Shown here piece after piece: positions 15,884 to 38,557 of a stretch of 64,000 nt of DNA. The position numbers and the translations under genes were made by a program. The notes under the pieces are model-generated. The model was not told where the DNA came from. It was given only the letters and a program-made list of their open reading frames with translations, and did no database searches. Source of the DNA: Clostridium sp. AT4. Lineage in GTDB: Bacteria; Bacillota; Clostridia; Lachnospirales; Lachnospiraceae. The stretch spans positions 698,303 through 762,302 of the forward strand of contig NZ_LN999828.1 in the NCBI RefSeq assembly GCF_001517625.2, read 5' to 3'. Position 1 is the stretch's first letter; every line of letters starts with the position of its first letter.

Positions 15884-15987
15884 GGCAAAATAAGCAAAAA
15901 GAAATGTTACCGGAGCAGGAGAAATAACAAAGATAGCTGCCAGAGTACATAAAATTTTGCTTTTTTTACACTGACTGCCCTTTTTAT

Positions 15988-16035: not shown

Positions 16036-16077
16036 AGAAAGTCAAAAATAAATATTAAGAAAGTATGAGGTATGATT

Positions 16078-17889: not shown

Positions 17890-17950
17890 TGATAACGTAG
17901 AGTGGAAAATATGGCTTGGTGGGTGTCGGTTCAGTGGTGGGGAGATGACA

Positions 17951-18162: not shown

Positions 18163-18243
18163 AATCTCCTGCCAATATGCCACCAGAACGCTGTGGCTGT
18201 TAACAAAGAATGAAAATCAAGCAATGAAAGGAGACAAAAGCCT

Positions 18244-20457: not shown

Positions 20458-20517
20458 ATCCATGCTACTAAATAGACAAGGAAGCAAGTTTATAATATAT
20501 CTTCCAAATCAGGATTA

Positions 20518-20550
20518 GGAAAAATCACAGTTTTGTGATTTTTCCTTCTT
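20518..20550 (+). terminator. Terminator of the mobilization operon
   Basis: GGAAAAATCACA and TGTGATTTTTCC form a perfect 12-bp stem with a 4-base loop, followed by TTCTT. Confidence 0.75.
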
Positions 20551-20646
20551 GGATATGTTTATACAGTACATATCATTAGCCAAAATATTTCCTATTATGT
20601 ATTTAAGAAATTCTATTTTCTTTATGAAATCTTCAAAATTTGCAGT

Positions 20647-20677
20647 TATCCTTTTAGCATAATCAAAAGAAAGGATA
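20647..20677 (+). promoter_or_regulatory. Hairpin covering the lanF ribosome site
   Basis: TATCCTTT (20647-20654) is the exact reverse complement of AAAGGATA (20670-20677), which contains the AAAGGA ribosome site of the next gene. If transcribed together they could pair and lower translation. The pairing is seen; regulation is inference. Confidence 0.4.
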
Positions 20678-20686
20678 GTGTAAAAT

Positions 20687-21388: not shown

Positions 21389-21392
21389 GAGT

Positions 21393-22121: not shown

Positions 22122-22122
22122 A

Positions 22123-22854: not shown

Positions 22855-23668
22855 GAAAATGATTTTACTGGTTGTTGCTATTCTGCTGATGGGAGCAAGT
22901 ATGACTGGCTGTTCTATTTTGGAAAAGGGAATTGATGAATATTCCAAAGACAAAGAAGAATGTGTGCTGAATACGGATAATGTGACACAGTTTACCTACA
23001 AGGGAGACAGCTTCACCATTCTTGATGATACGCTGTCAAATTCAGAACTTGGAGAATGGGTTGGCTATATCAGAAAACTTGCGGTTATAGATTCAAACGG
23101 GAAAATCCTGATTCAACAGGATACAGAAAAGGCCACTTTTAAAACTTTAGCTGATATTGCTGATTTAGAACAAGACGCCGCCTATATCATTCCATTTTTA
23201 AATGTCTATACGGTCAAAGCTGGAAATACGCAGGAGCTTATTGTTGACGCAAATGGAGGCTACCACAAAGCTATTCTTAATAGCTCTGTTACAGACAAAG
23301 ATACTATTTTTCGATACAACCAAAAAGTAGAGGTAGCAGCAGAAGGAGATTTTACAATAAATACGCAAAATTGTACACAGTTGCTATGTGGGGATAAAGT
23401 TTATCAGATAACAGATGAAACCGTTCCCGATGAAAATATTGGAGAATATATTGATATAATTGCTGAATCCTATACATTTGATAGTGAAACAAAATTACAA
23501 ATTCCCAAAGAGGAACTATATCATATTGATTGGAGCGGAAAAGAGAAGAGCTCACAAAAACGAGAGCAGTGGACAATAGGCGGTATATATGAAATCTTGG
23601 ACAAAGATAGAACTGATTCCGTGGCAGTAGAAGTAAATTCTGAATACCGAGTGGCAAAATGTCAGTAA
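22847..23668 (+). CDS. NisI/SpaI-like lantibiotic-immunity lipoprotein
   Basis: A 273-residue protein overlapping LanG by 8 bp. It has a signal peptide ending in lipobox MTGC, then two similar halves: TQFTYKGDSFTILDDTLSNSELGEWVGYI and TQLLCGDKVYQITDETVPDENIGEYIDII. This two-repeat layout is typical of NisI, which binds the lantibiotic at the cell surface. Placement directly after LanFEG supports this. Confidence 0.8.
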   Translation: MIKKMILLVVAILLMGASMTGCSILEKGIDEYSKDKEECVLNTDNVTQFTYKGDSFTILDDTLSNSELGEWVGYIRKLAVIDSNGKILIQQDTEKATFKTLADIADLEQDAAYIIPFLNVYTVKAGNTQELIVDANGGYHKAILNSSVTDKDTIFRYNQKVEVAAEGDFTINTQNCTQLLCGDKVYQITDETVPDENIGEYIDIIAESYTFDSETKLQIPKEELYHIDWSGKEKSSQKREQWTIGGIYEILDKDRTDSVAVEVNSEYRVAKCQ

Positions 23669-23726
23669 AATTTGCAAAATAATATGATGGTGCTAAATAG
23701 TACCGGAGTGAAAGGAGGTGCATTTT

Positions 23727-24392
23727 ATGGCAAATATCCTTGCTATAGATGATGAAATTCCTATTTTGGAATTGATAAAAAATGGATTGCAGAAAGACGG
23801 ACACACCGTTTCCACATATCCATCTGTTTCACAGATTCCCTTAGAGTACTTAAACCGATATGATTTGATAATGCTTGACATTATGATGCCTGACACAGAC
23901 GGCTTTACATTCTGTAAAAAAATCCGCTCCCTTGTGGATTGCCCCATACTATTTCTTACTGCTAAAACATTGGAGAACGATATCACTTTTGGCTTGGGAA
24001 TTGGAGCTGATGACTATTTGACAAAGCCCTTCCGTATAGCTGAATTGCGGGCACGTGTAAACGCCCATCTGCGGCGGGAAACAAGAGAAAAACACAGCAC
24101 AATCGTTTTTGAACATATTAAGGTCGATTTATCCGCAAAAGAAATCCGGGTTGATGACTGCCCGGTTCCCTTTACAAAGAGCGAATATTTAATTTGTGAA
24201 TATCTTGCTAATAATAAAGGACAGGTTTTTTCTAAAGAACAGATTTATGAGGCTGTATTCAGTATTGACGGAGACAGCGATAACTCAACAATTTCTACTC
24301 ACATTAAAAATGTACGGGCAAAGTTTAATAAGATGGGGGTACAGCCAATCATTACAGTTTGGGGGATAGGTTACAAATGGGAACAAAGATAG
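23727..24392 (+). CDS. OmpR-family response regulator of the immunity operon
   Basis: ATG 23727 has AAAGGAGGTG just upstream; the GTG at 23718 lies inside that site. The 221-residue protein has a receiver domain with phospho-acceptor Asp51 in LDIMMPDTDG and switch Lys in TKPF, and a winged-helix DNA-binding domain (PFTKSEYLICEYLANNKGQV). It likely activates lanFEG-I on lantibiotic exposure, as NisR/CprR do. Confidence 0.88.
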   Translation: MANILAIDDEIPILELIKNGLQKDGHTVSTYPSVSQIPLEYLNRYDLIMLDIMMPDTDGFTFCKKIRSLVDCPILFLTAKTLENDITFGLGIGADDYLTKPFRIAELRARVNAHLRRETREKHSTIVFEHIKVDLSAKEIRVDDCPVPFTKSEYLICEYLANNKGQVFSKEQIYEAVFSIDGDSDNSTISTHIKNVRAKFNKMGVQPIITVWGIGYKWEQR

Positions 24393-25744
24393 CGACATTA
24401 AGGACAGCTTTTATAAAATACCTTGTTATGCTGATAGGCGGTTTGGCATTATCCGTAATCACTCCATTTCTTATATTTACGATATTTGCTAGTTTGGGGA
24501 TTGTTAATTATGCTAATCAAAGTGAAGAATTTGTGAAAACAATAGCTCCTGTTCTTGCTTCAACACCTGATTTGGCAGATGTAACAGAAAATATGCCCCC
24601 CGGGTGTGATTACCTTTTACTGGATAAATCATACACAATACTGGAAACCTCCTTAAAAAATGATGATGTGAAATCAGCATTAAGATATGCGACCGATGGT
24701 GTTAATACTGCAAATAACGGAAAGCAGTTTCTGCTGATTACAAGGGATAAGGAATTGATTGTTTTACAATACTATATTGGTTCACGCTTTATAAACCCAT
24801 GGTTGAACAAATATTTTCCTTCACCGGAAATGATACTTTACTCTCTAATTGCTCTGAATTGCGTGTTTGTATGTATACTATTAACCATTCGTTTTTCAAG
24901 GCGTCTACAAAAACAATTAGTGCCTATTATGAACGCGACCGAAGAAATTTCATCACAAAATCTTGATTTTGAAATAGGCCATTCTAATATTAAAGAATTT
25001 GAAGATGTTCTGCTTTCTTTCTCTAAAATGCGGGATGATCTGAAAATGTCTTTAGAGAAGCAATGGCACGCGGAACAATTACAGAGAGAACAGATTGCAG
25101 CATTAGCCCACGATTTGAAAACACCTTTGACAGTTATTCAAGGAAATATTGATTTGATAAATGAAACGGAACTTGATGACGAACAACGTCTATATGCAGA
25201 TTATATCACTGAAAGCTCCAGTCAAATAAGCATTTATATTAAGACGCTGATTGATATTTCCCGGACTGTTGCTGGGTATCAGCTTCATTTGGAAGAAATT
25301 GATATTTCTGGTTATATGGGACAGATTGAAGCACAGGCAAACTCTTTATGTCTTGCAAAAGGAATTTGTCTGCACATGGAAAAGGAAGTTGACTTGGGTA
25401 TATTCAAAACGGATAAACTTCTGTTAGAACGGGCAATTATGAATGTGATAAGCAACGCCGTAGACTATTCTCCACCACTGGGAACAATTTATGTAACAAC
25501 ACAAAAGGTAGACCGTTTTTTACACATATCCATAACAGACGAGGGAACCGGCTTCACATCAGAAGCTATACACCATGCACAAGAACAATTTTTTATGGGC
25601 GACAAAAGCAGAACTTCTAATATGCACTTTGGTATGGGACTTTATATCACAAACAGCATTATCAAACAACATAACGGGCAACTTATTTTAAGCAATTCTA
25701 AAAAGACTGGTGGTGCGCAGGTAATAATTAAAATTCCATATTAA
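24377..25744 (+). CDS. Sensor histidine kinase of the immunity operon
   Basis: ATG 24377 overlaps the regulator gene by 16 bp. The 455-residue kinase has two membrane helices (about residues 13-35 and 150-172) flanking an extracellular sensor, then a HAMP-like region. Phospho-acceptor His245 lies in LAHDLKTPLTVIQ, and the ATPase motifs NVISNAVDYSP, DEGTGF and FGMGLYI follow. The exposed loop of about 110 residues fits a lantibiotic sensor of the NisK/SpaK kind. Confidence 0.88.
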   Translation: MGTKIATLRTAFIKYLVMLIGGLALSVITPFLIFTIFASLGIVNYANQSEEFVKTIAPVLASTPDLADVTENMPPGCDYLLLDKSYTILETSLKNDDVKSALRYATDGVNTANNGKQFLLITRDKELIVLQYYIGSRFINPWLNKYFPSPEMILYSLIALNCVFVCILLTIRFSRRLQKQLVPIMNATEEISSQNLDFEIGHSNIKEFEDVLLSFSKMRDDLKMSLEKQWHAEQLQREQIAALAHDLKTPLTVIQGNIDLINETELDDEQRLYADYITESSSQISIYIKTLIDISRTVAGYQLHLEEIDISGYMGQIEAQANSLCLAKGICLHMEKEVDLGIFKTDKLLLERAIMNVISNAVDYSPPLGTIYVTTQKVDRFLHISITDEGTGFTSEAIHHAQEQFFMGDKSRTSNMHFGMGLYITNSIIKQHNGQLILSNSKKTGGAQVIIKIPY

Positions 25745-25755
25745 GAAATTAGAGG

Positions 25756-25773
25756 GCGATACTGCGGTATCGC
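25756..25773. terminator. Small hairpin after the kinase gene
   Basis: GCGATAC and GTATCGC (25756-25773) form a 7-bp hairpin 12 bp after the kinase stop, with no T run of its own. Probably part of the composite end of the operon. Confidence 0.4.
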
Positions 25774-25774
25774 T

Positions 25775-25835
25775 CAGACTGTAGACAAACTTGGTGCTGG
25801 GCATAACACCCAACACCAAGTTTGTCTACAGTCTG
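25775..25835. repeat. Perfect 22-bp inverted repeat
   Basis: The arm at 25775-25796 (CAGACTGTAGACAAACTTGG and two more bases) is exactly complementary to 25814-25835, with a 17-base loop that can itself fold (TGGG/CCCA). It lies between two convergent genes. It is longer than needed for a terminator and has no T run. Confidence 0.7.
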
Positions 25836-25873
25836 AAAGCACTGAAAACCGTTGGGTTTACAGTGCTTTTTCT
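25836..25873. terminator. Terminator between kinase and XRE genes
   Basis: AAAGCACTG and CAGTGCTTT form a 9-bp stem, followed by TTTTC and flanked by A residues on the other strand. It suits both convergent genes. Confidence 0.75.
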
Positions 25874-25911
25874 TTTGGCAAAGAGGAAAAATGCAGTGAA
25901 TTTAAGTTTTG

Positions 25912-26487
25912 CTAAGTTTCACTGAGTTCTGATTTTACAGAGCGCCATTGTTTCTTAGGCTCATATTTTCCACATCCGTCACAAGTCTGCGGCCAGTTGA
26001 TTTTCCACTCAAAATACTCATCTCTGGTAATCTCACAGGATTTCAGTTCTTCTTTTCTGAGAACCCATTCTTTCATAAAATCATTGAGAACTCCATAATT
26101 GAACCACATACCAACAGGTGGATGAGCAGGCCAGTTATCTGAATCGTGATAACGGACAGAGGTATCTTCGCTGGAATTGCATTTCTCTCTTGGATAAGTT
26201 TCTAACTGGAAGAGATTGATAGCTGTCGGATTAAATTCATCAATCCAGAACAGAATTTCCATAAGTTCAGAAGCATCCATAGTAGTAGGTTCATGCAGTG
26301 CTAGTGGATTCACATCCAGAATCTTAGCCATTTCAGTTACCAAATCTTTTCGGGGAACCCGGTAATTTGTTTCATATTGGGCAAGACGGTTTGCGCCTTT
26401 ATCGCCCCAACCGAGGGCGGCCCCCAGTTCTGCCTGTGTCATATTCCGGAATGTCCGGATTTTTTTTATTTTATCACCGATTGTCAT
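25912..26487 (-). CDS. XRE-family regulator with C-terminal domain
   Basis: Start at 26487 (MTIGDKIKKIRTFRNMTQ), where the helix-turn-helix begins; a longer frame upstream runs through the operator region and is unlikely. The 191-residue protein has an N-terminal HTH (TQAELGAALGWGDKGANRLAQYE). The C-terminal 120 residues carry a Cys pair in CDGCGKYEPKKQW, which may be a small metal or structural site. Three operators lie just upstream of its gene, so it probably represses itself and the divergent promoter facing the recombinases. Confidence 0.75.
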   Translation of the reverse strand: MTIGDKIKKIRTFRNMTQAELGAALGWGDKGANRLAQYETNYRVPRKDLVTEMAKILDVNPLALHEPTTMDASELMEILFWIDEFNPTAINLFQLETYPREKCNSSEDTSVRYHDSDNWPAHPPVGMWFNYGVLNDFMKEWVLRKEELKSCEITRDEYFEWKINWPQTCDGCGKYEPKKQWRSVKSELSET

Positions 26488-26555
26488 ATCAGATTTCCAA
26501 CTTTCTTTTTGATAAATCCATTTTACTACTAAAAACAAGGAATGTAAACAGAAAG

Positions 26556-26642
26556 ATTCGCATTGAAGCGAATAAAATACTTGACATTCGCATAAATGCG
26601 AATTAAAATGACAGTACGATAAAGGTTCGCATGAAAGCGAAT
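26556..26642. promoter_or_regulatory. Three XRE-type operators
   Basis: Three dyads with the same half-site: ATTCGC-N6-GCGAAT (26556-26573), ATTCGCAT-AA-ATGCGAAT (26586-26603, perfect) and GTTCGC-N6-GCGAAT (26625-26642). Centre spacings are about 30 and 39 bp, close to three and four helical turns. They lie between the XRE gene and the rightward promoter. Binding by that XRE protein is inference. Confidence 0.75.
26581..26609 (+). promoter_or_regulatory. Rightward promoter blocked by the middle operator
   Basis: TTGACA (26581-26586), exactly 17 bp, TAAAAT (26604-26609). The whole spacer is the middle operator, so a bound repressor would exclude polymerase. It reads toward the small proteins and serine recombinases. 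Confidence 0.7.
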
Positions 26643-27131
26643 GCACAGATAAGGATAAATACTTTTTGCAAATTATTGCAAAATGAGGTTGGTAAAATCC
26701 TTCTGTCAGGCTTTATTAGTGAGAGGTTTTTTTGAAGCGAACAACATTTTGGTGTTTCCAGGCTGTAATAAGTGAAAGGATATTCAAAAAACTCTCTTTT
26801 GTACCTTGAAAACTGCATGAGCTGTATAATTTGATTCCACAGATGCCATAACCCTGTAAATGATTTTACTGGCGAGCGTCGAAGATACTCCGGAAACGGC
26901 TGGTAAGTTTGCGAAGAAGCTGCTAGCATTCAGAAATATTCTGATAGAGGTTGGACGTAACGCTGACAACAGATTATACGAATGGAAGCCAACACGCCGA
27001 ACAGAATATGCAATGCCATAGTAATAGATAAAATTTGAGAACAAAATGCGAAAGGTAAGGTGATGTGATTGAGAAAATTGTAGGTATAGGACGACTTATA
27101 CAAAGAATATGTTGGAAAAGAGGTGAGCATC
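26643..27131 (+). other. Long leader between promoter and first recombinase-operon gene
   Basis: About 490 bp that, if transcribed from 26609, would be an untranslated leader or contain tiny genes. It holds GTACCTTGAAAACTGCAT (from about 26801), similar in style to rRNA-spacer sequence, a TATAAT at 26825-26830, and one 53-codon ORF listed separately. I see no clear riboswitch fold. Confidence 0.3.
26860..27021 (+). CDS. Possible 53-residue small protein
   Basis: ATG 26860 to TAG 27021 gives MILLASVEDTPETAGKFAKK followed by a basic, protein-like tail ending WKPTRRTEYAMP. Codon use looks coding, but there is no ribosome site and a stop codon sits immediately before the ATG. It may be a real micro-gene or a fragment of a larger decayed gene. 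No family recognised. Confidence 0.3.
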   Translation: MILLASVEDTPETAGKFAKKLLAFRNILIEVGRNADNRLYEWKPTRRTEYAMP

Positions 27132-27377
27132 ATGGTGAATCAGTCAGTAATAGATTCCAGTGTTAATCTGGAGCAGTTAAAGGACATTGAAGATTTAATT
27201 CCTGATATGGATAAAGCTATTTCTGAAAAAGTGGAAACTTTTCTGGATAAATCTGGCGATCAGCCGTATGCTCACATGAATGAAGGGTATGTGGTAGTCG
27301 TGGAAATGACAGGAGAAATGGATGCTACAGATGCAATCAGTGATTATTTAAGAAAAAGAACGGAGTTGATGTATTAG
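27132..27377 (+). CDS. Small acidic protein before the recombinases
   Basis: ATG 27132 follows GAGGTG at a normal distance. The 81-residue acidic protein (MVNQSVIDSSVNLEQLKDIE...) has no recognised domain. It lies 130 bp before the first recombinase, downstream of the regulated promoter. A directionality factor or antirepressor is conceivable; nothing in the sequence proves it. Confidence 0.55.
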   Translation: MVNQSVIDSSVNLEQLKDIEDLIPDMDKAISEKVETFLDKSGDQPYAHMNEGYVVVVEMTGEMDATDAISDYLRKRTELMY

Positions 27378-27427
27378 ATGCAAGTCTTGAAAAAATATCT
27401 TGCGAAGCTACAGATGTTATGTTAATG

Positions 27428-27470
27428 TGAAGTCAGGGAAAATGAACGTGATACATGGTTTCTGACTTCA
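27428..27470. repeat. Hairpin upstream of the first recombinase
   Basis: TGAAGTCAG (27428-27436) and CTGACTTCA (27462-27470) are perfect inverted repeats, 25 bases apart, in the gap before the first recombinase gene. They could be an operator or attenuator; no T run follows. Confidence 0.45.
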
Positions 27471-27506
27471 AATTCAATGGAATAAGTAAGTTGGGAGCGA
27501 TGTAAA

Positions 27507-29180
27507 ATGGAACAGATGCAAATGAATATGCCAGATATATACGATGCTGCATTGTATCTTCGATTATCGAAAGATGATATGGAAGAGGGCGGTGCGAAGT
27601 CAGAGAGCAACAGCATTGCAAATCAGAGAGAGTTACTTCGGAGCTTTGTAAAAAGCCAGCCGGATATTCAGATCTTTGATATATATGTGGATGACGGATA
27701 CTCAGGAGGAAATTTTGATCGACCTGAGTTTAAACGAATGACAACTGATATAGAAGCTGGAAAAGTAAATTGCGTGATTGTAAAAGACTTATCCAGATTC
27801 GGAAGAGAATATATAGAAGCCGGGCGATGGATCGAAAAGACCTACCCGGCTTTAAATGTGCGTTTTATTTCAGTTACAGACCAGTTTGACAGTAAAACAG
27901 CAGATTTTTCAGAGAAGTCATTTGTAGTTCCAATCAAAAATTTCGTAAATGAAAGCTATTGTCGGGACATTTCCGGTAAAGTGCGAAGCCACCAGAAAAT
28001 CAAACGTGAAAAAGGTGAATTTATTGGAGCGTTTGCCCCGTATGGTTACTGCAAAGATCCAGAGAATAAGAATTGTCTGGTGATTGATTCTTATGCATCA
28101 GATATTGTAAGAAAAATATTTTCGTGGAAAATTGATGGATTCAGTCTTGGAGCAATCGCAGAAAAACTGAATGTACGTCATGTGCAGTCGCCAAAAGAAT
28201 ATAAAAAGGCAAATGGCGAGAATTATAATTCTGGATTTCACAGCTCAGACACACCGAAATGGTCGGCAGTGCAGATTAAAAGGATTCTGACCAATGAGGT
28301 TTACATTGGAAACATGGTACAAGGCAAGCAGGAACGAATCAGCTATAAGGTAAAGCAACGTCTGGATAAGCCAGAATCAGAGTGGGTGAAAGTAGAAAAT
28401 ACGCATCCGGCAATAATCAGGCAGAGTGATTTTGATGTGGTGCAGAAGCTACTTCAGTATGATGGCAGGGCATCGAAAACATCGGACAGTGCAAACTTTT
28501 TTTCAGGTTTTGTATTTTGCGGAGATTGCCATACACCGATGATACGCAGGGTAAATCAGTATAAGGGAAAGAAAAAAGCCTTTTATATTTGCCAGACAAA
28601 AAATAAAGGTGGAGATTGCACCAGACACAGTATTCCGGAAGAGGTGCTGAAAAGGATTGTATTGAAAGAGATTCAGGCATATACGGCACTTTTCGTAGAC
28701 TATCAGATGATTATGGAAGAACTTTGTGAAATGAAAGTCAGTTACGATCAGGTAATCGGTTATGATACGCAGATTAGTAAGTTGCAGGAAGAATATGACC
28801 GTTATTACAGCCTGAAAGCATCTTTGGGTGATGACTTGAAAGAGGGACTGATCAGCAAAGAGGAGTTCGATGATTTTCGGGAAAGTTACAGAAGAAAATG
28901 TGAAGAACTGGAGCAGATGATTGAAAACCAGAAAAAACTGGTAAAGCAAATGTTTGAGGGTGGAGTGTCTGCAACTGTTCAGTTGGAGGACTGGAAGAAA
29001 TCACTGGAAATCAAAGAACTGGATCGCACATTGCTGGCACTGACTGTAGATAAAATCTATATTTATGAGAACAAGCAAATTAAAATTCACATCCGCTATC
29101 AGGATATGATTGAGAAGATGAAAGTCATAAGACGGTTTTATGCGGAACACAGGACAGAGTACAGGAAAGAGGTGGGATAA
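27507..29180 (+). CDS. Large serine recombinase 1
   Basis: A 557-residue protein with resolvase domain (catalytic Ser21 in YLRLSKDD, then NSIANQR, DDGYSGGNFDRPEF, and VKDLSRFGREYIEAG with conserved Arg). A Recombinase domain with GAFAPYGYCKDP follows, then a zinc-ribbon Cys set (CGDCHTPMI... YICQTKNKGGDC) and a coiled coil (about residues 410-480). It should catalyse integration/excision by a Ser-linked break. The next gene starts directly after the stop, so the three recombinases form one operon. Confidence 0.92.
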   Translation: MEQMQMNMPDIYDAALYLRLSKDDMEEGGAKSESNSIANQRELLRSFVKSQPDIQIFDIYVDDGYSGGNFDRPEFKRMTTDIEAGKVNCVIVKDLSRFGREYIEAGRWIEKTYPALNVRFISVTDQFDSKTADFSEKSFVVPIKNFVNESYCRDISGKVRSHQKIKREKGEFIGAFAPYGYCKDPENKNCLVIDSYASDIVRKIFSWKIDGFSLGAIAEKLNVRHVQSPKEYKKANGENYNSGFHSSDTPKWSAVQIKRILTNEVYIGNMVQGKQERISYKVKQRLDKPESEWVKVENTHPAIIRQSDFDVVQKLLQYDGRASKTSDSANFFSGFVFCGDCHTPMIRRVNQYKGKKKAFYICQTKNKGGDCTRHSIPEEVLKRIVLKEIQAYTALFVDYQMIMEELCEMKVSYDQVIGYDTQISKLQEEYDRYYSLKASLGDDLKEGLISKEEFDDFRESYRRKCEELEQMIENQKKLVKQMFEGGVSATVQLEDWKKSLEIKELDRTLLALTVDKIYIYENKQIKIHIRYQDMIEKMKVIRRFYAEHRTEYRKEVG

Positions 29181-30836
29181 ATGGCAAGAACAGCAAAAAG
29201 ATATAAGAAAAACACAGAGAAGAAAGTTTCTGGTATTCCGGTATGTATGGCTGCAATTTATGCCAGATTATCCGTAGATAGTGATGAAAAAAAGTCAGAA
29301 TCTATTGAAACACAGGTTACGCTGATAAAAGAATTCATTCAGAAGAACAATGAAAATCCAGACAGAGAGTATGAGATTGCTGTATATGATATTTATTCTG
29401 ATTTGGGAAAAACCGGAACAAATTTTGACAGACCGGGATTTGAACGGATGATGAATGATGTCAGGGCAGGTAAAATAAATGGTATTCTGGTAAAGGATTT
29501 CTCACGATTTGGAAGAAATTATATCGAAACCGGAAATTATTTGGAAAAGATTCTCCCTTTTATGAAAGTGCGGTTTGTTTCTGTATGTGACAACTATGAC
29601 TCCTATGCACCGGATGCCAAGAATCAGGAATTATCCATGAATATCAAGAATCTGGTGAATGATGCTTATGCGAAAGACATTTCTGCAAAAGAACGGGCAG
29701 CGAAACGTATTGCACAGAAAAATGGTGAGTATGTGGGATCTACAGCTCCATATGGATATTGTGTGGAAAAGATAAATGGAATTTATAAGTTGATGGTGGA
29801 AGCGGAAGCTGCAAAGATTGTCCGCAGGATTTTTGAAGAATATGCTTCGGGAGATGGCATACAGAGCATTATTGACAGGCTGTTTGAGGATAGGGTACAT
29901 CGGATTTCAGATTATAACCAATATCATCATGTGTACTGTCAGGACGGAGAGAACCTTCATCAGTGGGGAAATTCTTCGATACGTGCAGTACTGAACCGGA
30001 ATAATTATTATGGAGATCTGGTTCAGAGAAAATATGAATCCAGATTTCAAAGAGGTGAAAAATGGTGTGACATACTGGACGAAAGTCAGTGGATTATTAC
30101 GCCAAATGCTCATGAGCCGATTATCAGCAGAGAATTGTTTGACAAAGCACGGGTCAGGTTAAAAGCAGCACAACAGAAAGCAGCAAAAAATACGGTAGGA
30201 TGGGAAGAGGATGAAAGAGCATTTTACAATGTATTCTATTGTGGAGACTGCAAGCGGAAAATGTGTACACGCAGATACAGAGGCAATGTGTATTATTTTT
30301 GCAACGCTGCTCAGTATCGGGATGAAAGGAAATGTAGTCATAAATCTATCTCTGAAGAAAAATTGCAGAAAATTGTCCGCTCGGAGCTGACCAGACAGTT
30401 TCAGTTATCTGGCTTACGGAAAAAGGATATGTCTGCTATAAGCAGTGCGGTATTTCTTTCCAAAATCAAAGAAGTTCAAACAGAAATCAGAAAATTGGAT
30501 GTAGATATGGAAAAACGTTCAGAAAAACTGGCACAGGCATTTATGCAATATAAAGAGGGGGAACTTTCCAAAGAAGCCTATATAGAAATGAAAGATGACC
30601 GTAATAGCTGGAAAGAGTTTTGCGAAGAGAGAAAGAAGTTTTTAGAGCAAACCATACGAAAGCTGGAAAAACAGCAGAAAGAAGAAGCCAGATTTTTACG
30701 AAGTCTGCTGGAATTGGATGGGACAACCAGAATCAATGCGGAACTTGCAGAGGACTTGGTTGAAAGTATGTATCTGTATGGTGATGGCAGACTGGAAATT
30801 AATTTCGGGTTTAAGGGGGCGGTAGAACATGAGTGA
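29181..30836 (+). CDS. Large serine recombinase 2
   Basis: A 551-residue protein starting at the base after recombinase 1 ends. Catalytic Ser31 lies in YARLSVDSD; KDFSRFGRNYIETGNY carries the Arg. The recombinase motif GSTAPYGYCVE, zinc-ribbon cysteines (CGDCKRKMCTRR... FCNAAQY) and a C-terminal coiled coil are all present. All expected residues are intact, so it is probably active together with, or regulated by, its neighbours. Confidence 0.92.
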   Translation: MARTAKRYKKNTEKKVSGIPVCMAAIYARLSVDSDEKKSESIETQVTLIKEFIQKNNENPDREYEIAVYDIYSDLGKTGTNFDRPGFERMMNDVRAGKINGILVKDFSRFGRNYIETGNYLEKILPFMKVRFVSVCDNYDSYAPDAKNQELSMNIKNLVNDAYAKDISAKERAAKRIAQKNGEYVGSTAPYGYCVEKINGIYKLMVEAEAAKIVRRIFEEYASGDGIQSIIDRLFEDRVHRISDYNQYHHVYCQDGENLHQWGNSSIRAVLNRNNYYGDLVQRKYESRFQRGEKWCDILDESQWIITPNAHEPIISRELFDKARVRLKAAQQKAAKNTVGWEEDERAFYNVFYCGDCKRKMCTRRYRGNVYYFCNAAQYRDERKCSHKSISEEKLQKIVRSELTRQFQLSGLRKKDMSAISSAVFLSKIKEVQTEIRKLDVDMEKRSEKLAQAFMQYKEGELSKEAYIEMKDDRNSWKEFCEERKKFLEQTIRKLEKQQKEEARFLRSLLELDGTTRINAELAEDLVESMYLYGDGRLEINFGFKGAVEHE

Positions 30837-32400
30837 TCAGAAACTGATTATTGGATATTACCGTCTTTCCATGGAAGATGACTCAGAGGGAGAAAGTAAC
30901 AGCATTATTAATCAGAGAAAACTGGTAAAAGATTATATTTCCAATATTCCGGAACTGGATTCTATGCCATTTCAGGAGTTCTACGACGATGGATATTCTG
31001 GTTCTAGTATGGAGCGTCCAGCAATTAAGCAGGTTTTGGAGCTTGCCAGAGAGAACAAAGTGCAGTGCATTGTGGTAAAAGATTTTTCACGTTTTGCCAG
31101 AAACTATATTGAGATGGGAACTTATCTGGAGCAGATTTTTCCATTTCTGGGAGTACGATTCATTTCTATTTCAGACCGATATGATTCTAAAGATTATAAA
31201 GGAAAGAGTTCAGACATCGAAGTACAGTTTAAAGGATTGATCGCAGACTTCTATGTGAAAGATCAGTCTGTAAAGGTAAAGGCAGCAGTCAGCACCAGAC
31301 GGGGAAAAGGTGAGTATTGTTGTGGTTCTGCACCTTATGGGTATCGAATCAATCCAGAAAATAAGAAAGAACTGGTGATTGTAGAGGACGAAGCGGAAGT
31401 GATTCGCAGAGTATTTGAACTGACCAATCAGCGATATTCCAAGATGGAGATTTGTAAGTTATTCAATGAAGAGGGGGTATTGACTCCCTTGCAGTCTATG
31501 AGCAGACGACAGAAATCAGACAGCAAGAAAGCTACATCAAGAGGATTGCAGTGGACGAGTGATATGATACGGAAGATTGTGGATGATAAGACTTATATAG
31601 GCTGTATGGTCTATGGAAAGACAAAGATTCCAGAACCAGGGACAGGGAAAGAAGTACCAGTGCCGAGAAATCAGTGGAAAGTGATGGAAAATCACCATGA
31701 GCCGATTGTATCAAAAGACATCTTTGAGAAAGCACAGTCCCTGCAGATCAGATACACTAAAAAAAGCAAATTTGACAGGGAGATAACACTATTAGGTGGC
31801 TATGTGAAGTGTGGAAATTGTCATAGAAGTCTGACTTCAAGCAGTCCGGTTCATGGTCATATTCTTTATAGCTGTGCTTACAGTAAAGGAAAAGAAGATA
31901 CAGGGTGTTTTGCCGGGAAAGCGGATAACAAAATGCTAGAGCATATCGTACTGGCAGAAATAAAGGCATATTTACGCCAGAATATCAGCCAGGAACAGAT
32001 GCAGCAATCTATGAGAAAACAGCAAGAGGACAGTATAGAAGCCTATAAGACGGAAAGTGCAGACTGTGAAAAACGTCAGGAGCAGATAAAGATTCAGAAC
32101 CGCCAGAACTATGAGAAGTATCATGAGGGACAGATGAATCAGAAACAGTTCATGGAAGCAAAGAAGCAGTTGGAAGAAGAAAGAGAACGACTGCAGAAAC
32201 GTGTACAGGAACTGGATGAACTGATAAACGGAGAGAAAGAAATTCTGATGAAAAAAAATGTTCCGGTGGAGCAGATGTTGAAGTATTTAGGCTATGAGAA
32301 GTTGACACGAGAAATGCTGGAAGAATATGTGCAGGGAATATATGTGTATGATGACGGGAGAGTGGAGGTGGAATGGAGGGCACTTAAATTAGCACGATGA
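30829..32400 (+). CDS. Large serine recombinase 3
   Basis: A 523-residue protein overlapping recombinase 2 by 8 bp. Catalytic Ser14 lies in YYRLSMEDD; VKDFSRFARNYIEMGTY, CCGSAPYGYRINPE, the zinc-ribbon CGNCHRSL and CAYSKGKEDTGC, and a long coiled coil (about residues 400-470) follow. It is the last gene of the mobilizable element; the right attachment site should lie close by, but I could not find a convincing core repeat with the left edge. Confidence 0.92.
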   Translation: MSDQKLIIGYYRLSMEDDSEGESNSIINQRKLVKDYISNIPELDSMPFQEFYDDGYSGSSMERPAIKQVLELARENKVQCIVVKDFSRFARNYIEMGTYLEQIFPFLGVRFISISDRYDSKDYKGKSSDIEVQFKGLIADFYVKDQSVKVKAAVSTRRGKGEYCCGSAPYGYRINPENKKELVIVEDEAEVIRRVFELTNQRYSKMEICKLFNEEGVLTPLQSMSRRQKSDSKKATSRGLQWTSDMIRKIVDDKTYIGCMVYGKTKIPEPGTGKEVPVPRNQWKVMENHHEPIVSKDIFEKAQSLQIRYTKKSKFDREITLLGGYVKCGNCHRSLTSSSPVHGHILYSCAYSKGKEDTGCFAGKADNKMLEHIVLAEIKAYLRQNISQEQMQQSMRKQQEDSIEAYKTESADCEKRQEQIKIQNRQNYEKYHEGQMNQKQFMEAKKQLEEERERLQKRVQELDELINGEKEILMKKNVPVEQMLKYLGYEKLTREMLEEYVQGIYVYDDGRVEVEWRALKLAR

Positions 32401-32426
32401 CAATATTTAATGTGCTATGGTAGAAT
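32397..32426 (+). promoter_or_regulatory. Likely promoter of the SIR2 gene
   Basis: ATGACA (32397-32402), 18 bp, TAGAAT (32421-32426), about 47 bp before the SIR2 start and overlapping the last codons of recombinase 3. Confidence 0.5.
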
Positions 32427-32473
32427 AAATATAGATTTAGATAATGTTTTTATGTTGAAAGAAAGGTGAGAAC

Positions 32474-35400
32474 ATGAATATGAATTATATTAGAGAAATT
32501 GCAGAAGCTTTGTCTGAGAATCATGCTGCATTGATGGTAGGGGCTGGATTTTCAAAAAATGCTGAAAAGGTTTCTATTACAGATAAAAAATTCTTAAATT
32601 GGAATGAGCTTTCTGATTTGTTTTATGAAACAGTTTATGGGAAAGAAGGGCCAGGGAAGCAATATAATAGTTCTCTGAGGCTTGCTCAGGAGGTAGAGAT
32701 TACGGTAGGACGTCCCAAATTGGAAAAAATAATTAAAGATGCAGTACCGGATTTGGAATACGCTCCTTCTGAAGTGTATGTGAAGTTAATGGAAATGCCA
32801 TGGAAGGATGTATTCACTACAAATTATGATACTTTATTAGAGCGTGCAGCAGATAAGGTAACAAACCGTCGATATAATGTTGTCATTTGCCAAGAAGATT
32901 TAGTCAATAGTAACAATGCTCCCAGAATTTTAAAATTACATGGTTCGTTTCCATCATACCGTCCATTTATAATTACCGAAGAAGATTATAGAACATATCC
33001 AGTGAAGTTTGCTGCAATGGTTAATACAGTTCAGCAAGCATTATTAGAGAATGTATTTTGCATGTTAGGTTTTTCTTGTGAGGATCCTAATTTCATAAAG
33101 TGGATTGGATGGATACATGATAATCTTGGAAAGAGTAGCTCGCAAAAGATATATATGGTATCAGTTACTCATATTGCTGAGGCAAAACGTAAATTACTTT
33201 TTGAACGTAATATTATTGTTATTGATTTACAAGAACTATGGCCAGACAAAAATATTGGTGATAGATTGAATTCTTTTTTAGAAGAATTAAAATTAAGAGT
33301 GGAAGAAAAGCGGAGAAAAGATAATTGGTTTGATTTAAGACAGTTGCATTTACAGTATGATACTGATTTTGTGAAAAAAACAGAAATAATGAAAAAATTA
33401 AATGAATCATATCCGGGTTGGATTTTTTTACCGTGGAAAATGAAAAATAAGGTAAGTTATGTATTAAATGAACTCGATAATATGAATGAATTTGAACATA
33501 TTTCATTCACAGATCAAGTAAACTATATGTATGAATATGTAAAGTTTATGGATATCGCAGGAAGACCGATTCTTTCTCAGGTAGTGGATCAGTTTTTGAA
33601 TGTATTGGAGAAAAAAGAAGGGGATGAACTAGTTGACAGTTTTGGAACAGAATTAGAATACAAAGAACAAGTAATATATTTGCATCTCTTACGTTCTTAT
33701 AGAGAGTTGGCAGAATGGGAAAAGTATGAAGCATGTCATGAAAAAATAAAAGATGCATATTTAGACTATGATAATAAGCAATTTTTATATGCGTGCGATT
33801 GTCGGAAACAGCTATTTAGATTTCAAGCTGAAAAATTAGCGGGAATGCTGGATTCGTGGAATTTGGTAAACGGTGATATGTACTGGCCTTTGGTTAAAGC
33901 CAATATGTATGCACTTATTGGAGAAATATCAAAAGCGGATGCAATCCTATCGGATGTACTTACCTTGGTGAGGAAACAGTTGGTCAAAGCAAGTGGAAAC
34001 GAATATTTGTCTTCGATAGAAGAAAGTATTGTATCATTAATTAATTTTATCAGACAAGGAAATATTGTAGATGAGACAGAAGAATGTATACATGAAAGTG
34101 ATGTATCTTGGTGGAATGAAAATGATAAGTATTGTTTATATTTAAATACAGAAGAAAAAGGTAATAAGAGTTTTGAAACAAAAGATAATTTCGATTTGTC
34201 CTCTACATATACAATGCATATGGGAAGGGATAATACAAATGTGTTTTATGCACTGGAATATTTGAGGTTTCTAGAACAAACAGGTCATCCATTTCGGTTG
34301 CAGAATGTTACTAATACTAAAGGATTACACAGCACAGTAAAACTATTAGCACCATATTATCCACACTGGTGCCTTATGCAAATTTTAATAGCACAGGATA
34401 ATAAACATATAGATTTAATGTTTGGACGAGTTAAGTTGTATGAGTTATCACAAGAAGAAGTTGATGATATTGCGAAAGAATATTTAAGAATATTTCAGAT
34501 TGTGATGAAAAATGTTAAGCCAGAGAATTTCTTTTTTGCAAAGTCTATATATGAGCAGTCAGCAGTAGTTCTTCCAGATATTATAGCGAGATTATGTTAT
34601 AAATGTTCAATTAATATATTGGATGAAATTTTCGATTCAATTCTTGATTTGTGCTTAAGTAATGTTCGAACAAATTTCAAGGGTATTCGAAAAATATTTA
34701 AAGGATTGTTTGAAGCATTTTCACTTCAAGATCAAGAAAATCGAATCGAGAAAATACTACAATTTCCGGTGGATGTAGATCGAATGAGTGATTATTGCGA
34801 TCCAATAGTATTTATATCAAAACCGAGAGAAAAATATGTGCTTGATATTGAAATATATAACAGGATACTTTTCCAAATTAAACAAACAATAAAAGAAGCA
34901 GAAAATGAAAAAAGACAAGCTGCAGTGAATCGTTTGGTTATACTTGCACAAGTTATTATACTAAATGAGGAGGATTTGAGATATTTATGTAAGGTATTAG
35001 AAAAAGAAGAAACACTAGAAAATAAGTCTATATTATATGTGTTGGATAAACAAAAGTATGAGAAAAATAAAAAAGAAATATTTGAAGATACATTAAAAAG
35101 AATGAAATCAGATTCAAATACGCAAATGTTTTCGGCTGGAGGAAATAATTATAGAGACTTAATAGGAATTCTTAATGATATAGATATTAGTAAAATTAAT
35201 CTGGAAGAAGCGTTGGAAGTGCTGACGAATTTAGTGAAAACTAACCAATCATGGGTTGAGAGAAATCAACCAAATGCTAGTGAAAGAATTCGTCAGAGCT
35301 TTTTAGTTGTCATGGGATTGATTATTTTACGTGAGAGTAAAAATATTGATTTATCCGAGACAGAAAAAGAAAAGGTGTATGCATATTTTGAAGCTTTAAG

Positions 35401-35959
35401 CGAGCTGTATAAAAATTCCATTGCAATTGACATGATAGAAGCATGTTTTGTTGATGATAGCAAATTTTATTTTGAAGATTTTCAAAATAAAATTTGGTTA
35501 AGTAATGAGCAAGAGTTGGGGTTGATTAAAGATTTTTATGATGTACTTTATATAAATGATTTTAAGTTACAAAACAATGACATGTTGTTGAAGTGTTCAA
35601 ATATGCTTTTTAGGATTTCGATATATAGAGTGATAAGTAGTGAAATACTTCACAATATGGCTGCATTGAAATTGTGTTATGCAATAATAAAAAATGAAAT
35701 TGTTTTAAAAACAGAAATACAGACTTTACTTGTATGTTTGCTAAAGCTTCAAGATGAGACGGTAATAAAACAAACAGATTCTGAACAAGAAGCTTTGTAT
35801 AAATTAAGATGTCGAATAATATCTTGCAAGATTGCGAAAGAACTGTATGTAAGAGGAATAAAATCTGATATTGTAGATGGGTGGAAAAGAATTAGTGAGA
35901 ATAAAAATGAATTTATAGAAATAAGAAATGTTGTTTTTGATACTACAGGAGATGAGTAA
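32474..35959 (+). CDS. SIR2-domain anti-phage defence protein
   Basis: A 1161-residue protein starting after AAAGGTGAG. The N-terminal 280 residues are a SIR2-type NAD-binding domain: GAGFSKNAE for NAD, FTTNYDTLLE with Asn117, LKLHGSF with catalytic-type His156, and MLGFSCEDPNFIKWI. The remaining 880 residues are helical and repeat-like, with no P-loop. This is the architecture of defence-associated sirtuins (DSR-type), which sense a phage protein through the long C-terminus and then deplete NAD to stop infection. Strong AT-richness marks it as foreign. The exact DSR class cannot be told without a search. Confidence 0.8.
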   Translation: MNMNYIREIAEALSENHAALMVGAGFSKNAEKVSITDKKFLNWNELSDLFYETVYGKEGPGKQYNSSLRLAQEVEITVGRPKLEKIIKDAVPDLEYAPSEVYVKLMEMPWKDVFTTNYDTLLERAADKVTNRRYNVVICQEDLVNSNNAPRILKLHGSFPSYRPFIITEEDYRTYPVKFAAMVNTVQQALLENVFCMLGFSCEDPNFIKWIGWIHDNLGKSSSQKIYMVSVTHIAEAKRKLLFERNIIVIDLQELWPDKNIGDRLNSFLEELKLRVEEKRRKDNWFDLRQLHLQYDTDFVKKTEIMKKLNESYPGWIFLPWKMKNKVSYVLNELDNMNEFEHISFTDQVNYMYEYVKFMDIAGRPILSQVVDQFLNVLEKKEGDELVDSFGTELEYKEQVIYLHLLRSYRELAEWEKYEACHEKIKDAYLDYDNKQFLYACDCRKQLFRFQAEKLAGMLDSWNLVNGDMYWPLVKANMYALIGEISKADAILSDVLTLVRKQLVKASGNEYLSSIEESIVSLINFIRQGNIVDETEECIHESDVSWWNENDKYCLYLNTEEKGNKSFETKDNFDLSSTYTMHMGRDNTNVFYALEYLRFLEQTGHPFRLQNVTNTKGLHSTVKLLAPYYPHWCLMQILIAQDNKHIDLMFGRVKLYELSQEEVDDIAKEYLRIFQIVMKNVKPENFFFAKSIYEQSAVVLPDIIARLCYKCSINILDEIFDSILDLCLSNVRTNFKGIRKIFKGLFEAFSLQDQENRIEKILQFPVDVDRMSDYCDPIVFISKPREKYVLDIEIYNRILFQIKQTIKEAENEKRQAAVNRLVILAQVIILNEEDLRYLCKVLEKEETLENKSILYVLDKQKYEKNKKEIFEDTLKRMKSDSNTQMFSAGGNNYRDLIGILNDIDISKINLEEALEVLTNLVKTNQSWVERNQPNASERIRQSFLVVMGLIILRESKNIDLSETEKEKVYAYFEALSELYKNSIAIDMIEACFVDDSKFYFEDFQNKIWLSNEQELGLIKDFYDVLYINDFKLQNNDMLLKCSNMLFRISIYRVISSEILHNMAALKLCYAIIKNEIVLKTEIQTLLVCLLKLQDETVIKQTDSEQEALYKLRCRIISCKIAKELYVRGIKSDIVDGWKRISENKNEFIEIRNVVFDTTGDE

Positions 35960-35981
35960 ATATTATTGTTGAGCTCTTATA

Positions 35982-36037
35982 CTGTATGACAATGACATGA
36001 CATCCTAGAGACAATTAAGTATTGTTGAGAGCATACC
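35982..36037 (+). repeat. Island repeat copy B, left flank of the ATPase/nuclease cassette
   Basis: Contains TGACAATGACATGACATCCT, 20 bases, then GAGAGCATACC. The copy at 38324 has the same two blocks with the same 20-base spacing. It lies in the 246-bp gap after the SIR2 gene; the rest of that gap is AT-rich with no clear promoter. Confidence 0.6.
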
Positions 36038-36205
36038 ATACGCTACTTGAAGAGAATGTGATAAGTGGAGTTGTTGAAAAAGAAAAGTGCATATGTTACT
36101 ATTAAAATGGATATAATTCATGAGAAACAAAAGAATAATTAAAGTATAAAAAGCGTATATTTGGGGAAATATATAAGAGCAATATGTACGAGAAGGGAGA
36201 CTGGA

Positions 36206-37534
36206 ATGAATAAAAAATGGACACTCCATGTTGAAAATTTTGCAAAAATAAAAAGTGCGGATGTTACTGTTGCACCGTTGATGTGTTTTGTGGGTGATAA
36301 TAATAGTGGAAAAAGTTATTTAATGAGTATATTATGGGGGATTTTAACATTAGGAAAAGATATTTTTCCCAAGAAGCCTTCAGAAGCCAGAGTATATAAA
36401 CAGTGTGAAGATTGGTTAAAAGCACATATCAATACAGAGATTGAATTATCTGAGAATGATATGGAACTATATATAAATTGGTTTAATGAATTGTTAAATA
36501 CTCAAAAAAAGTCTTTAGTTAGAAAGATTTTTAATTACGATGTTGAGGTTGAAAAATTAAAGATTACTAATTATGAAAGAACTAAACCTATTAAAATTGT
36601 CTGGGAAAAATCAGGATCTAGATATTCTGTAACAAACAATTATATTAAATTTCCGGAAGTAGATTTACCTAATAGGGATGAGTTGCTTCGGATGAATGCG
36701 TATATTTGTTGGAATTTATTAATGGAGGGTATTGCTGCTCCACTATATACACCAATTGTAAAGGGAAGAAGAATTGGCGAGCCAATTTATCTTCCGGCTT
36801 CGAGAACAGGCTTTATGCTTACATACTCGCAGCTGATTGAAAATTCGTTACAAATTAGTTTTTCGGCAGAATTACATGAAAATACAAGTACTCTTACACT
36901 TCCATATGTAGATTTCTTACAGCTGATAACGAAGTTTGAAATTAATAAAAAAGATAGCAAAAAGTATTCAGGCATAATTGAATATATTGAAAAAAATATG
37001 ACAAAAGGAAATTTGTCAGTAAAAAAAGATATGTTACCAGTTATCCAATATCAGCCGGAGGGAAGTGATAAAGAAATTCCATTGTATGTTGCATCATCTA
37101 TTGTTTCGGAAATTTCACCATTACTTTTGGTACTGAAATCCGGCATTAATTTTAAAGCAATGATTATTGAAGAACCAGAAGCTCATTTACATCCAGAGTT
37201 ACAACAAAAAATGGCTAGACTGATTATTAATATGATGAATTTGGGTATACCGGTATGGATTACTACTCATAGCGATACCATTTTGCAACATATAAATAAT
37301 ATGATGAAATTAAAAAATCATGTACGAAGCAATGAGTTGCAGCAGGAATATGGATATAAAAAGGAAGATCTTCTTTCTAGAGAAGATATTCAAATGTATC
37401 AGTTTGTTACGGAAAATAGTGGGAAAACAAGATTGATACCATTGGAGGCAACAAAATATGGATTTGTTGTTCCAACATTTAATAATGCTCTTGAAAAAAT
37501 AGTTGAGGAAGTATACGCATTTCAGGAGGACTGA
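36206..37534 (+). CDS. AAA ATPase of a candidate two-gene defence system
   Basis: ATG 36206 follows AAGGGAGA; an in-frame ATG at 36161 has no site. The 442-residue ABC/SMC-like ATPase has Walker A GDNNSGKS (residues 30-37), a signature-like region (ASSIVSEISPLLLVL), Walker B with EEPEAHLHPE (from residue 322) and the switch His355 in TTHSD. It belongs to the AAA_15/AAA_21 (OLD-like) group but lacks a TOPRIM nuclease domain. A small PD-(D/E)XK-like gene follows 3 bp later, so the pair probably forms an ATPase-nuclease unit, comparable in logic to Septu, PARIS or AbiL, without matching them clearly. Confidence 0.8.
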   Translation: MNKKWTLHVENFAKIKSADVTVAPLMCFVGDNNSGKSYLMSILWGILTLGKDIFPKKPSEARVYKQCEDWLKAHINTEIELSENDMELYINWFNELLNTQKKSLVRKIFNYDVEVEKLKITNYERTKPIKIVWEKSGSRYSVTNNYIKFPEVDLPNRDELLRMNAYICWNLLMEGIAAPLYTPIVKGRRIGEPIYLPASRTGFMLTYSQLIENSLQISFSAELHENTSTLTLPYVDFLQLITKFEINKKDSKKYSGIIEYIEKNMTKGNLSVKKDMLPVIQYQPEGSDKEIPLYVASSIVSEISPLLLVLKSGINFKAMIIEEPEAHLHPELQQKMARLIINMMNLGIPVWITTHSDTILQHINNMMKLKNHVRSNELQQEYGYKKEDLLSREDIQMYQFVTENSGKTRLIPLEATKYGFVVPTFNNALEKIVEEVYAFQED

Positions 37535-37537
37535 TAA

Positions 37538-38161
37538 ATGATTGAAGAACGGATACAGTATGGAATTGATAATTTTTTAGAAGATAATTTTTTCCTGCCC
37601 TTTAGCAATTCCTATTGTTTAGAGGAAAAAAGTGAGACAGGAAGAAGCAAATTGCACGTAGATGTACAAGGGGATAATTTATGTAGTGAGGATTATGACC
37701 ATAAAGGAAAGTGCAATTTTCTTAAGAAAAAAAGTCCATTTAAATTAAGAAGAAGTGTTGATCATGTTTTGCTTCAAAAAAAGGAAGAGAAATGGATATT
37801 GCATCTTATTGAAATGAAGAGTAAGGTTGATAACAAAAAATGGCATGAAATAAAACAAAAAATACGTGCTAGTTATTTTAATGTTCGTGCATTGGAAGGG
37901 GTATTGGGAATACATATTGATGAGATTAGGACATATACAACGTATGAGAGTACTGGATTTTGGAATACAGATAGAAGTGAAGATCCTAAAATAATGGTTG
38001 CACCTTTAGGAAAACCAATGCCACCAGCACCAGAGAAAGAATGGGAAAATAATATTATTAGCGTAGATGTTGGCGCTGTGATGAAGTTTCAACATGTTGC
38101 AGTTAAGATGCAGAGAACAGAAGAGGGAGATAAGCTAATAGGAAATTTGCGTATTTGCTGA
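37538..38161 (+). CDS. Putative PD-(D/E)XK nuclease partner
   Basis: A 207-residue protein whose ATG follows AGGAGG and lies 3 bp after the ATPase stop. The centre reads RSVDHVLLQ (Asp75), a beta-hairpin, then LHLIEMKSK (Glu92, Lys94). D-X16-E-X-K on two adjacent strands is the core of PD-(D/E)XK nucleases. A Cys pair (LCSEDYDHKGKC) in the N-terminal part might bind metal. No exact family recognised. Paired with the ATPase it is a likely effector; the nuclease call is inference from motif spacing. Confidence 0.55.
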   Translation: MIEERIQYGIDNFLEDNFFLPFSNSYCLEEKSETGRSKLHVDVQGDNLCSEDYDHKGKCNFLKKKSPFKLRRSVDHVLLQKKEEKWILHLIEMKSKVDNKKWHEIKQKIRASYFNVRALEGVLGIHIDEIRTYTTYESTGFWNTDRSEDPKIMVAPLGKPMPPAPEKEWENNIISVDVGAVMKFQHVAVKMQRTEEGDKLIGNLRIC

Positions 38162-38210
38162 TTTGAGAATTCTCTGTACTGTTGCTTGCATAGAATGGAT
38201 AATATTAAGT

Positions 38211-38236
38211 TTTGTGACAATAACGTTACATCCTCC
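38211..38236 (+). repeat. Island motif copy C
   Basis: TTTGTGACAATAACGTTACATCCTCC, 50 bp after the nuclease gene, same strand as the other copies. Confidence 0.55.
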
Positions 38237-38244
38237 CCACCCAC

Positions 38245-38270
38245 TTTGTGACAATTATATAACGTCCTCT
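38245..38270 (+). repeat. Island motif copy D
   Basis: TTTGTGACAATTATATAACGTCCTCT, 34 bp downstream of copy C. C and D share TTTGTGACAAT and TCCTC. Confidence 0.55.
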
Positions 38271-38276
38271 ATACAG

Positions 38277-38326
38277 AAATATGCGGTTTTAAGCCATTTT
38301 CTTGGCAAAAAAGCCGCATATTTTTT
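38277..38326 (+). terminator. Strong terminator after the defence cassette
   Basis: AAATATGCGG (38277-38286) pairs with CCGCATATTT (38314-38323), with inner TTTT..GCC/GGC..AAAA pairing, and the stem runs into six T. It probably ends the ATPase/nuclease transcript. Confidence 0.7.
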
Positions 38327-38378
38327 GTAGCAATGACTTGACATCCTCGGGGGCACTGTGCGTGGAGGAGAGTATACC
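38324..38378 (+). repeat. Island repeat copy E, right flank of the cassette
   Basis: TTTGTAGCAATGACTTGACATCCT, 20 bases, then GAGAGTATACC. Matches copy B in both blocks and in their spacing, and matches copy A in the first 14 bases. Confidence 0.6.
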
Positions 38379-38557
38379 GAAATGATTTTTTTCTTTTTGT
38401 GAAAGAAAGGTAAGCGCAAAATAATTCGACGGATTGTGTTGCCCTAAAAATTATTCCATAATAATCATTAGAGAATGCAAGCATTTCACTTCATCTTCTC
38501 TTGCTAGAAATGATAGATGCGAGCATTTTATTCTATCCGATTTATGGAGGTGTGCTC

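Follow-up and report, generated by a model that had tools for sequence, protein, structure and literature searches.

The window analyzed here, by which we mean the whole stretch of 64,000 nucleotides from Clostridium sp. AT4 (contig NZ_LN999828.1, positions 698,303 to 762,302 of the forward strand), carries two adjacent genes that are enclosed by two direct repeats and stand next to a SIR2-type defense gene. The first of the two genes (36206..37534, + strand; ATG start at 36206, alternative in-frame TTG upstream at 36161) encodes a 442-residue ATPase of the AAA_15/OLD-ABC type. It matches the Pfam families AAA_15 (E 7e-23) and AAA_21 (E 3e-14), and a Walker A motif (GDNNSGKS), a Walker B motif (EEPEAHLHPE), and the H-loop motif THSD can be read in its sequence. 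The best PADLOC match is PD-T4-4_A (E 7e-41, 138.8 bits), with AriA at 87.1 bits, whereby the query in the searches comprised positions 36209-37534 with the first Met omitted. The second open reading frame (ORF; 37538..38161, + strand) lies directly downstream of the ATPase stop at 37534 and encodes a 207-residue partner, which we regard as a putative PD-(D/E)XK nuclease. In this protein E29, D54, D75, E92, and K94 are conserved columns among 12 aligned sequences, and a predicted model of low confidence has the order strand-strand-helix-strand around D75 and E92-x-K94. The initial annotation, which was made from the letters alone, had described this type of ATPase with its motifs, a 207-residue partner with D75, E92, and K94, an adjoining SIR2 gene, and two repeats with both blocks 20 bases apart, and all of these features were found as described.

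The composite repeat consists of the blocks TGACATCCT and GAGAGNATACC at a distance of 20 nt and is located on the + strand at 35998-36037 and 38339-38378, whereby the two direct copies are 2341 bp apart and bracket exactly two genes. When an upstream block is included, CAATGACNTGACATCCT is found exactly at 35990 and 38331. The mean count of the composite repeat in 100 shuffles of the window was 0.00, and the whole 3.41-Mb genome of the strain yielded 2 exact matches (reversed control, 0); within the window, a GAGAGNATACC-type block at the 20-nt spacing is present only at the two reported sites. Among 250 genomes of the family, the repeat was detected, besides the own genome, in G472 only, where it stands behind the same recombinases (see below) and accompanies different cargo. 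Around homologous gene pairs it is absent in 5/5 loci scanned, and viral contigs, in which two more pairs occur, gave 0 exact matches. Since the repeats occur without the pair and the pair occurs without the repeats, the repeats mark a larger element and not the pair. The view of the initial annotation that they belong to the pair, which would move as a cassette of its own, did not hold up.

This larger element is an integrative mobilizable element (IME) of ~25 kb (13365..38349), the borders of which were placed to within a few bases by blastn collinearity with the related genomes G579, G472, G545, and G274 and by its attachment (att) junctions. On the left it enters a gene for an S8 (subtilase) peptidase with a CspB-type prodomain (11603..13390, + strand; Peptidase_S8 E 1e-34, CspB_prodomain E 3e-30), in which element DNA has taken the place of the native 3′ end and which now ends in VGYGEDVIIRLH and a stop. 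The left junction attL (GTGGGGTATGGGGAGGACGTTATAATAAGGTTACATTGA; 13352..13390, + strand) is the same in G579 and G274. In the left-end comparison, which covers the window and these two genomes, the junction GTGGGGTATGGGGAGGACGTTATAATAAGG inside the S8 gene is common to all three, and the upstream S8 coding sequence differs among them. The right repeat (38331..38385, + strand) is composed of a P-arm and a segment at 38350-38385 that reads GALCVEESIPK followed by a stop. Tails of this kind, each closed by a stop, are GVLCLSESIPK in G472, GRLCLAESIPD in G545, GALCLENSFPK in G579, GALCVRDSLPG at a second locus in G579 (locus 2), and GAFCTAQSLPEI in G712. In a survey of S8 genes, 61 genomes were searched, 51 had a match, and the best 30 loci were fetched, one being the window's own interrupted gene. 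The other loci end in G[ATK]LC[VL]..S in 20 of 29 cases; one (G021) is a looser match, and 8 were not resolved. Because S8 loci elsewhere end likewise, the GAGAGNATACC block represents the terminal part of the S8 gene that was interrupted, and therefore the right repeat is attR. A tRNA as the insertion target was ruled out, the sole tRNA of the window being located at 1575.

The gene content of the element is that of an IME. Besides attL and attR, it comprises a MobC/NikA-like mobilization protein (18244..18624; Pfam), a MobA/VirD2-type relaxase (18573..19814; Pfam Relaxase E 1e-32), and three large serine recombinases, all predicted from Pfam matches and encoded on the + strand. Recombinase 1 (27507..29180) carries the Resolvase, Recombinase, and Zn_ribbon_recom domains and is followed by recombinase 2 (29181..30836) and recombinase 3 (30829..32400). 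Searched at the DNA level with recombinase 3, 77 of 397 family genomes, the own one among them, gave matches, most of which are short; nearly end-to-end matches at 93-94% identity were obtained for G472, G579, and G545, and the G274 copy is 72% identical. The GC content amounts to 31-34% in the cargo of the window, 39-40% in the element, and 48-50% in the chromosome. The body of the element also contains a set of ABC-transporter genes together with a two-component system (20687-25744; Pfam), for which no matching DNA is present in G579, G472, and G274.

The right end of the element (38211..38353, + strand) is conserved and consists of three related P-type units (38213, 38247, and 38326), a larger structure not mentioned in the initial annotation, of which the right repeat is a part, and an inverted repeat seen by eye. 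Its identity is 95-96% in G545, G472, and G579 locus 2 and 77% in G579 locus 1. Another P-type unit lies at 13512 in the left element end, and the presence of such units at both ends suggests several putative recombinase-binding sites. The same ~140-bp right end follows recombinase 3 in G472, G579, and G545, after different cargo or no cargo. We compared seven right ends or slots (window, G472, G274, G545, G712, and two in G579), whereby the G274 contig stops before the right end and the recombinase fragment and right end of G712 are on separate contigs. Cargo was present in 6/7. The empty one is G579 locus 1, in which the right end comes ~50 bases after recombinase 3, and therefore the region 32400-38211 of the window is optional cargo. 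In the window the order within this slot is DSR2-like gene, inner site resembling attR, and ATPase-partner pair. The first cargo gene (32474..35959, + strand) encodes a SIR2 defense protein of 1161 residues that matches PADLOC Dsr2 nearly over the full length (E 1e-204) and scores 696.6 bits against NCBIfam Dsr2, which is under the curated cut-off of 1400 and makes it DSR2-like and not a full DSR2; in viral contigs no DSR2 was found. The PADLOC matches in the slots of relatives are Menshen NsnA, NsnB, and NsnC in G472, NsnA in G274, and AbiLi and AbiLii in G712. The slot of G545 (L055:11919-14712) contains a PD-T4-6-like kinase flanked by proteins of 242 and 398 residues, neither of which matches PADLOC or Pfam at E 0.001, and these two genes are candidates for an unknown defense system. 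In G579 locus 2, an AbiEi and KilA-N (PDC-S22) segment, in which three codirectional ORFs encode an AbiEi-like protein of 196 residues, a protein of 109 residues, and a KilA-N protein of 300 residues, lies between two right ends that are 2191 bp apart and have an identical attR sequence. The geometry of a short defense-type segment between two attR sites is therefore found in two genomes, the window's own and G579. Upstream of this locus there is an ORF of 130 residues with a PLDc_2 match just under the Pfam cut-off, followed by large genes, and no recombinase is present in the 21 kb between locus 2 and locus 1. This ~21-kb region (G579:C1:2680050-2701100), with a right end of this IME family on either side, holds large genes that by eye look like sugar-polymer degradation functions. 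As judged from the sequences, the slot content differs among the genomes and mostly consists of predicted anti-phage genes.

The left repeat (35990..36050, + strand) resembles attR as well. Its P-arm (CAATGACATGACATCCT) equals the right P-arm save for one base and is followed in the same register by a diverged S8-gene tail, RQLSIVESIPYAT and a stop. In viral sequences, the P-arm pattern is present in 13 stretches. Scored with an attR matrix that was derived from six further attR sites (their own scores, 43-76) and not from the left repeat, the latter reaches 26.7 bits, compared to 10.3 for the next non-att site of the window and a maximum of 6.3 in 60 mononucleotide shuffles of the region 32400-38420. 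No genome carrying the left-repeat tail was found among the 397 searched, the ten other matches all beginning at position 36070 or later and hence outside the repeat; S8 paralogues were considered as the source of the tail, and none of the 15 of 16 that were readable contains ESIP. We read the left repeat as an attR-like junction, probably of diverged or foreign origin.

The gene pair itself was placed by homology. Six genomes matched in the homologue search, of which G000 and G320 gave full-length matches and the other 4 were dropped as short (E 3.5e-5 to 8.4e-4); a profile search of 245 genomes of the class matched the own genome only. Both genes are linked in 7/7 homologous loci found (L012, L013, and L018-L022, some of them probably from the same strains), and 8/8 distant ATPase homologues that were opened, out of 33 records, have an ORF of 176-210 residues directly downstream. 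The co-occurrence that had been named as a check on the pair is hence present. In L013:5001-5600, L020:8001-8600, and L021:8001-8623 the nuclease frame is interrupted or altered and the ATPase frame is intact. The partner gave no match among plasmid, phage, and PDB sequences; the profile of 12 partners had a single PDB match (E 0.67), which was not used, and none of the family HMMs (hidden Markov models), PD-T4-4_B and PDC-M47B included, was matched with E values allowed up to 10. An HNH, TOPRIM, or DUF4435 effector, already discounted in the initial annotation, was ruled out by the lack of a Pfam or PADLOC match. The further claim that the partner stands outside known effectors is true of HMM matches, but not of the alignment: against eight PD-T4-4_B/PDC-M47B-type proteins its profile reached 93.9% in hhalign (E 1.5e-7, 113 columns including D75 and E92-x-K94), compared to 0.2% for the ATPase profile as a negative control; the L120-L127 partners are 14-22% identical to the window protein. 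Because the partner has no PD-T4-4_B HMM match, the pair was classed as a relative and not as PD-T4-4 proper, and it looks like a divergent relative of PD-T4-4, PDC-M47, and WonAB. The proposed ATPase-nuclease type is supported by the linkage and the family profile comparison, and a role in defense would follow from these relatives. Part of PMC10952713 assigns a PD(D/E)XK domain to PD-T4-4, and an excerpt of PMC9519451 names an ICE-like locus (ICE, integrative and conjugative element) as the place where it was found. According to portions of PMC12137116, phage protection by WonAB depends on the two genes together, on the ATPase motifs, and on the lysine of the nuclease, and WonB was modelled on dimerised C-terminal extensions of WonA.

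Taken together, we consider it highly probable that the repeats are two att junctions of an IME that sits in an S8 peptidase gene and has an exchangeable defense slot, and that the pair is one PD-T4-4/WonAB-like module in this slot. The IME would have inserted into the 3′ end of the S8 (CspB-type) gene, presumably by means of its serine recombinase triplet, and the excised circle of the whole element would have TGACATCCTC joined to GGGGAGGACGTTATAA, with the junction TGACATCCTC-GGGG-AGGACGTTATAA. The inner site would be an accretion scar, left when a segment that brought a right end along became attached to the resident attR. In such an event a circle with P-B′ would join the resident attR, either via the recombinases or by homologous recombination, and the resulting order would be IME, DSR2-like gene, P-B′ with a foreign tail, pair, right end, and P-B′ with the native tail. 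The tail of the left repeat would then stem from an S8 gene ending in QLSIVESIPYAT in some strain. Parts of PMC5704250 describe accretion of units without integration genes but with att sites for IMEs and for cis-mobilizable elements (CIMEs). Against the reading of the left repeat as an attR-like junction stand the score of -7.1 that its middle 20 bases obtain with the attR matrix and the Ser in its tail where 15 tabulated empty-site tails have Cys. Serine integrases, as stated in a portion of PMC3783163, do not recombine other att pairings, which counts against the recombinase route. For the pair, which the IME would carry as one of several exchangeable defense modules, homologues suggest that a dimeric OLD-ABC ATPase senses infection and licenses the 207-residue PD-(D/E)XK nuclease, as proposed for WonAB, and by analogy to WonAB and PD-T4-4 the partner may cut nucleic acid. 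The right end of this IME family would represent a dock at which DSR2-like, PD-T4-4-like, Menshen, AbiL, AbiEi/KilA-N, and PD-T4-6-like systems are swapped. This dock rule would provide a handle on unknown defense genes in related gut bacteria, such as the two genes of the G545 slot that had no match, the pair would stand for a divergent ATPase-nuclease branch that is missed by current HMMs, and the locus would exemplify modules that lack a recombinase and have an attR site on either side.

A narrower form of this reading, to which we give about an even chance, is that two IMEs once stood in tandem, that the second has mostly been deleted, and that the pair and the right end now move only together with the first. 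A relic of this kind would be in line with the drifted middle of the inner site, with the tandem accretion and decay of IMEs and CIMEs described in passages of PMC5704250, and with the resemblance of G579 locus 2 to a truncated element, given its 130-residue ORF with the PLDc_2 match below the cut-off. Decay alone leaves unexplained, though, why a B′-type tail rather than an attP-like P-P′ junction lies between the units, and the same geometry occurs in two genomes. It is rather unlikely that recombinase-less defense modules move as attR-bearing satellite cassettes, in which case a circle with a single P-B′ site would join a resident attR with the three IME recombinases acting in trans, leaving the unit between two attR sites that each carry a tail from a host peptidase gene; if true, modules could stack at one dock and form a growing defense array. 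Improbable, too, is a non-defense function of the ATPase and nuclease, for example in element stability or as a toxin-antitoxin system. Such a function would fit the plain chromosomal settings of L018, between TetR-type and MMPL-type genes, and of L021, beside a pyrB-type gene (both by eye), as well as the broken or altered nuclease frames beside intact ATPase frames, but the neighbor of the pair is DSR2-like, the same slot holds defense systems in relatives, and the nearest families of the pair are defense systems. Slightly less probable still, the left repeat might be an internal binding site of a recombinase or regulator that is att-like by chance or function. P-type units are indeed present within the ends of the element (13512, 38213, and 38247), and the middle of the left repeat is mismatched; yet the two blocks are matched and equally spaced at 20 nt, a combination that in the window is seen at the two reported sites only, and an in-frame L-x-x-x-E-S-I-P tail with a stop follows. 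Least probable of all is a self-contained two-gene cassette that is moved by its own flanking repeats, since the matching repeats around exactly two genes and the similar short segment between two sites in G579 are outweighed by the lack of repeats around homologous pairs, by their occurrence at the right end of the IME irrespective of what cargo, if any, is present there, and by the shared B block, which is coding sequence of the target gene.

Just outside attR lies an insertion of the IS66 family (38410-41136, assigned by eye); its ends read GTAAGCG, and 8 bp of target sequence (AAAGAAAG) are duplicated. The repeats were considered as IS66 ends and rejected, as IS66 has ends of its own and the composite repeat is present nowhere else in the genome. 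End fragments of this IS66 copy were found at four other places of the genome, three of which were viewed. To the right of it (41230-41330), the window contains DNA similar to the gene beside attR in G472, which is apparently broken in the window, the similarity covering 41236-41311 and 42058-42132.

Septu and PARIS likewise combine an AAA_15/21-type ATPase with a small effector and in this respect are similar to the pair of the window. They differ in the partner, which in Septu is an HNH protein (PtuB) and in PARIS a TOPRIM/DUF4435 protein (AriB), whereas the window partner matches neither in Pfam or PADLOC. PD-T4-4 from E. coli and the PADLOC candidate PDC-M47 come closer, as in both an ATPase is directly followed by a nuclease of ~200 residues, and E29, D54, D75, and [ED]92-x-K94 are common to the partner and the eight PD-T4-4_B/PDC-M47B-type proteins; the difference is that the window partner matches none of the HMMs of the B proteins, even at E 10. 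WonAB from the WASA-1 prophage of Vibrio cholerae (PMC12137116) is also an operon of an OLD-ABC ATPase and a PD-(D/E)xK nuclease, in another host phylum and on another carrier element, and is likened here by description and not by the WonB sequence. With regard to the carrier, a literature search, outside of which subscription papers largely lay, yielded no account of an S8-peptidase-targeting IME with a defense slot. IME_Rho_tet, described with 21-bp inverted repeats in a part of PMC12904643, can be set beside the window IME by description only. Streptococcal ICEs with a serine integrase triplet, as far as an excerpt of PMC4701971 portrays them, share with it a row of three large serine recombinases at one end, and they too insert inside a gene. 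Their targets given there are mutT, traG, and hsdM, compared to the S8 peptidase gene of the window IME, which unlike the ICEs of that excerpt has a defense cargo slot beyond its recombinases. Finally, the CIME accretion covered in part of PMC5704250 has in common with the locus that units without integration genes keep their att sites and stand in tandem with an element, whereas the unit of the window is flanked on both sides by attR-type (P-B′) junctions with target-gene-type tails.

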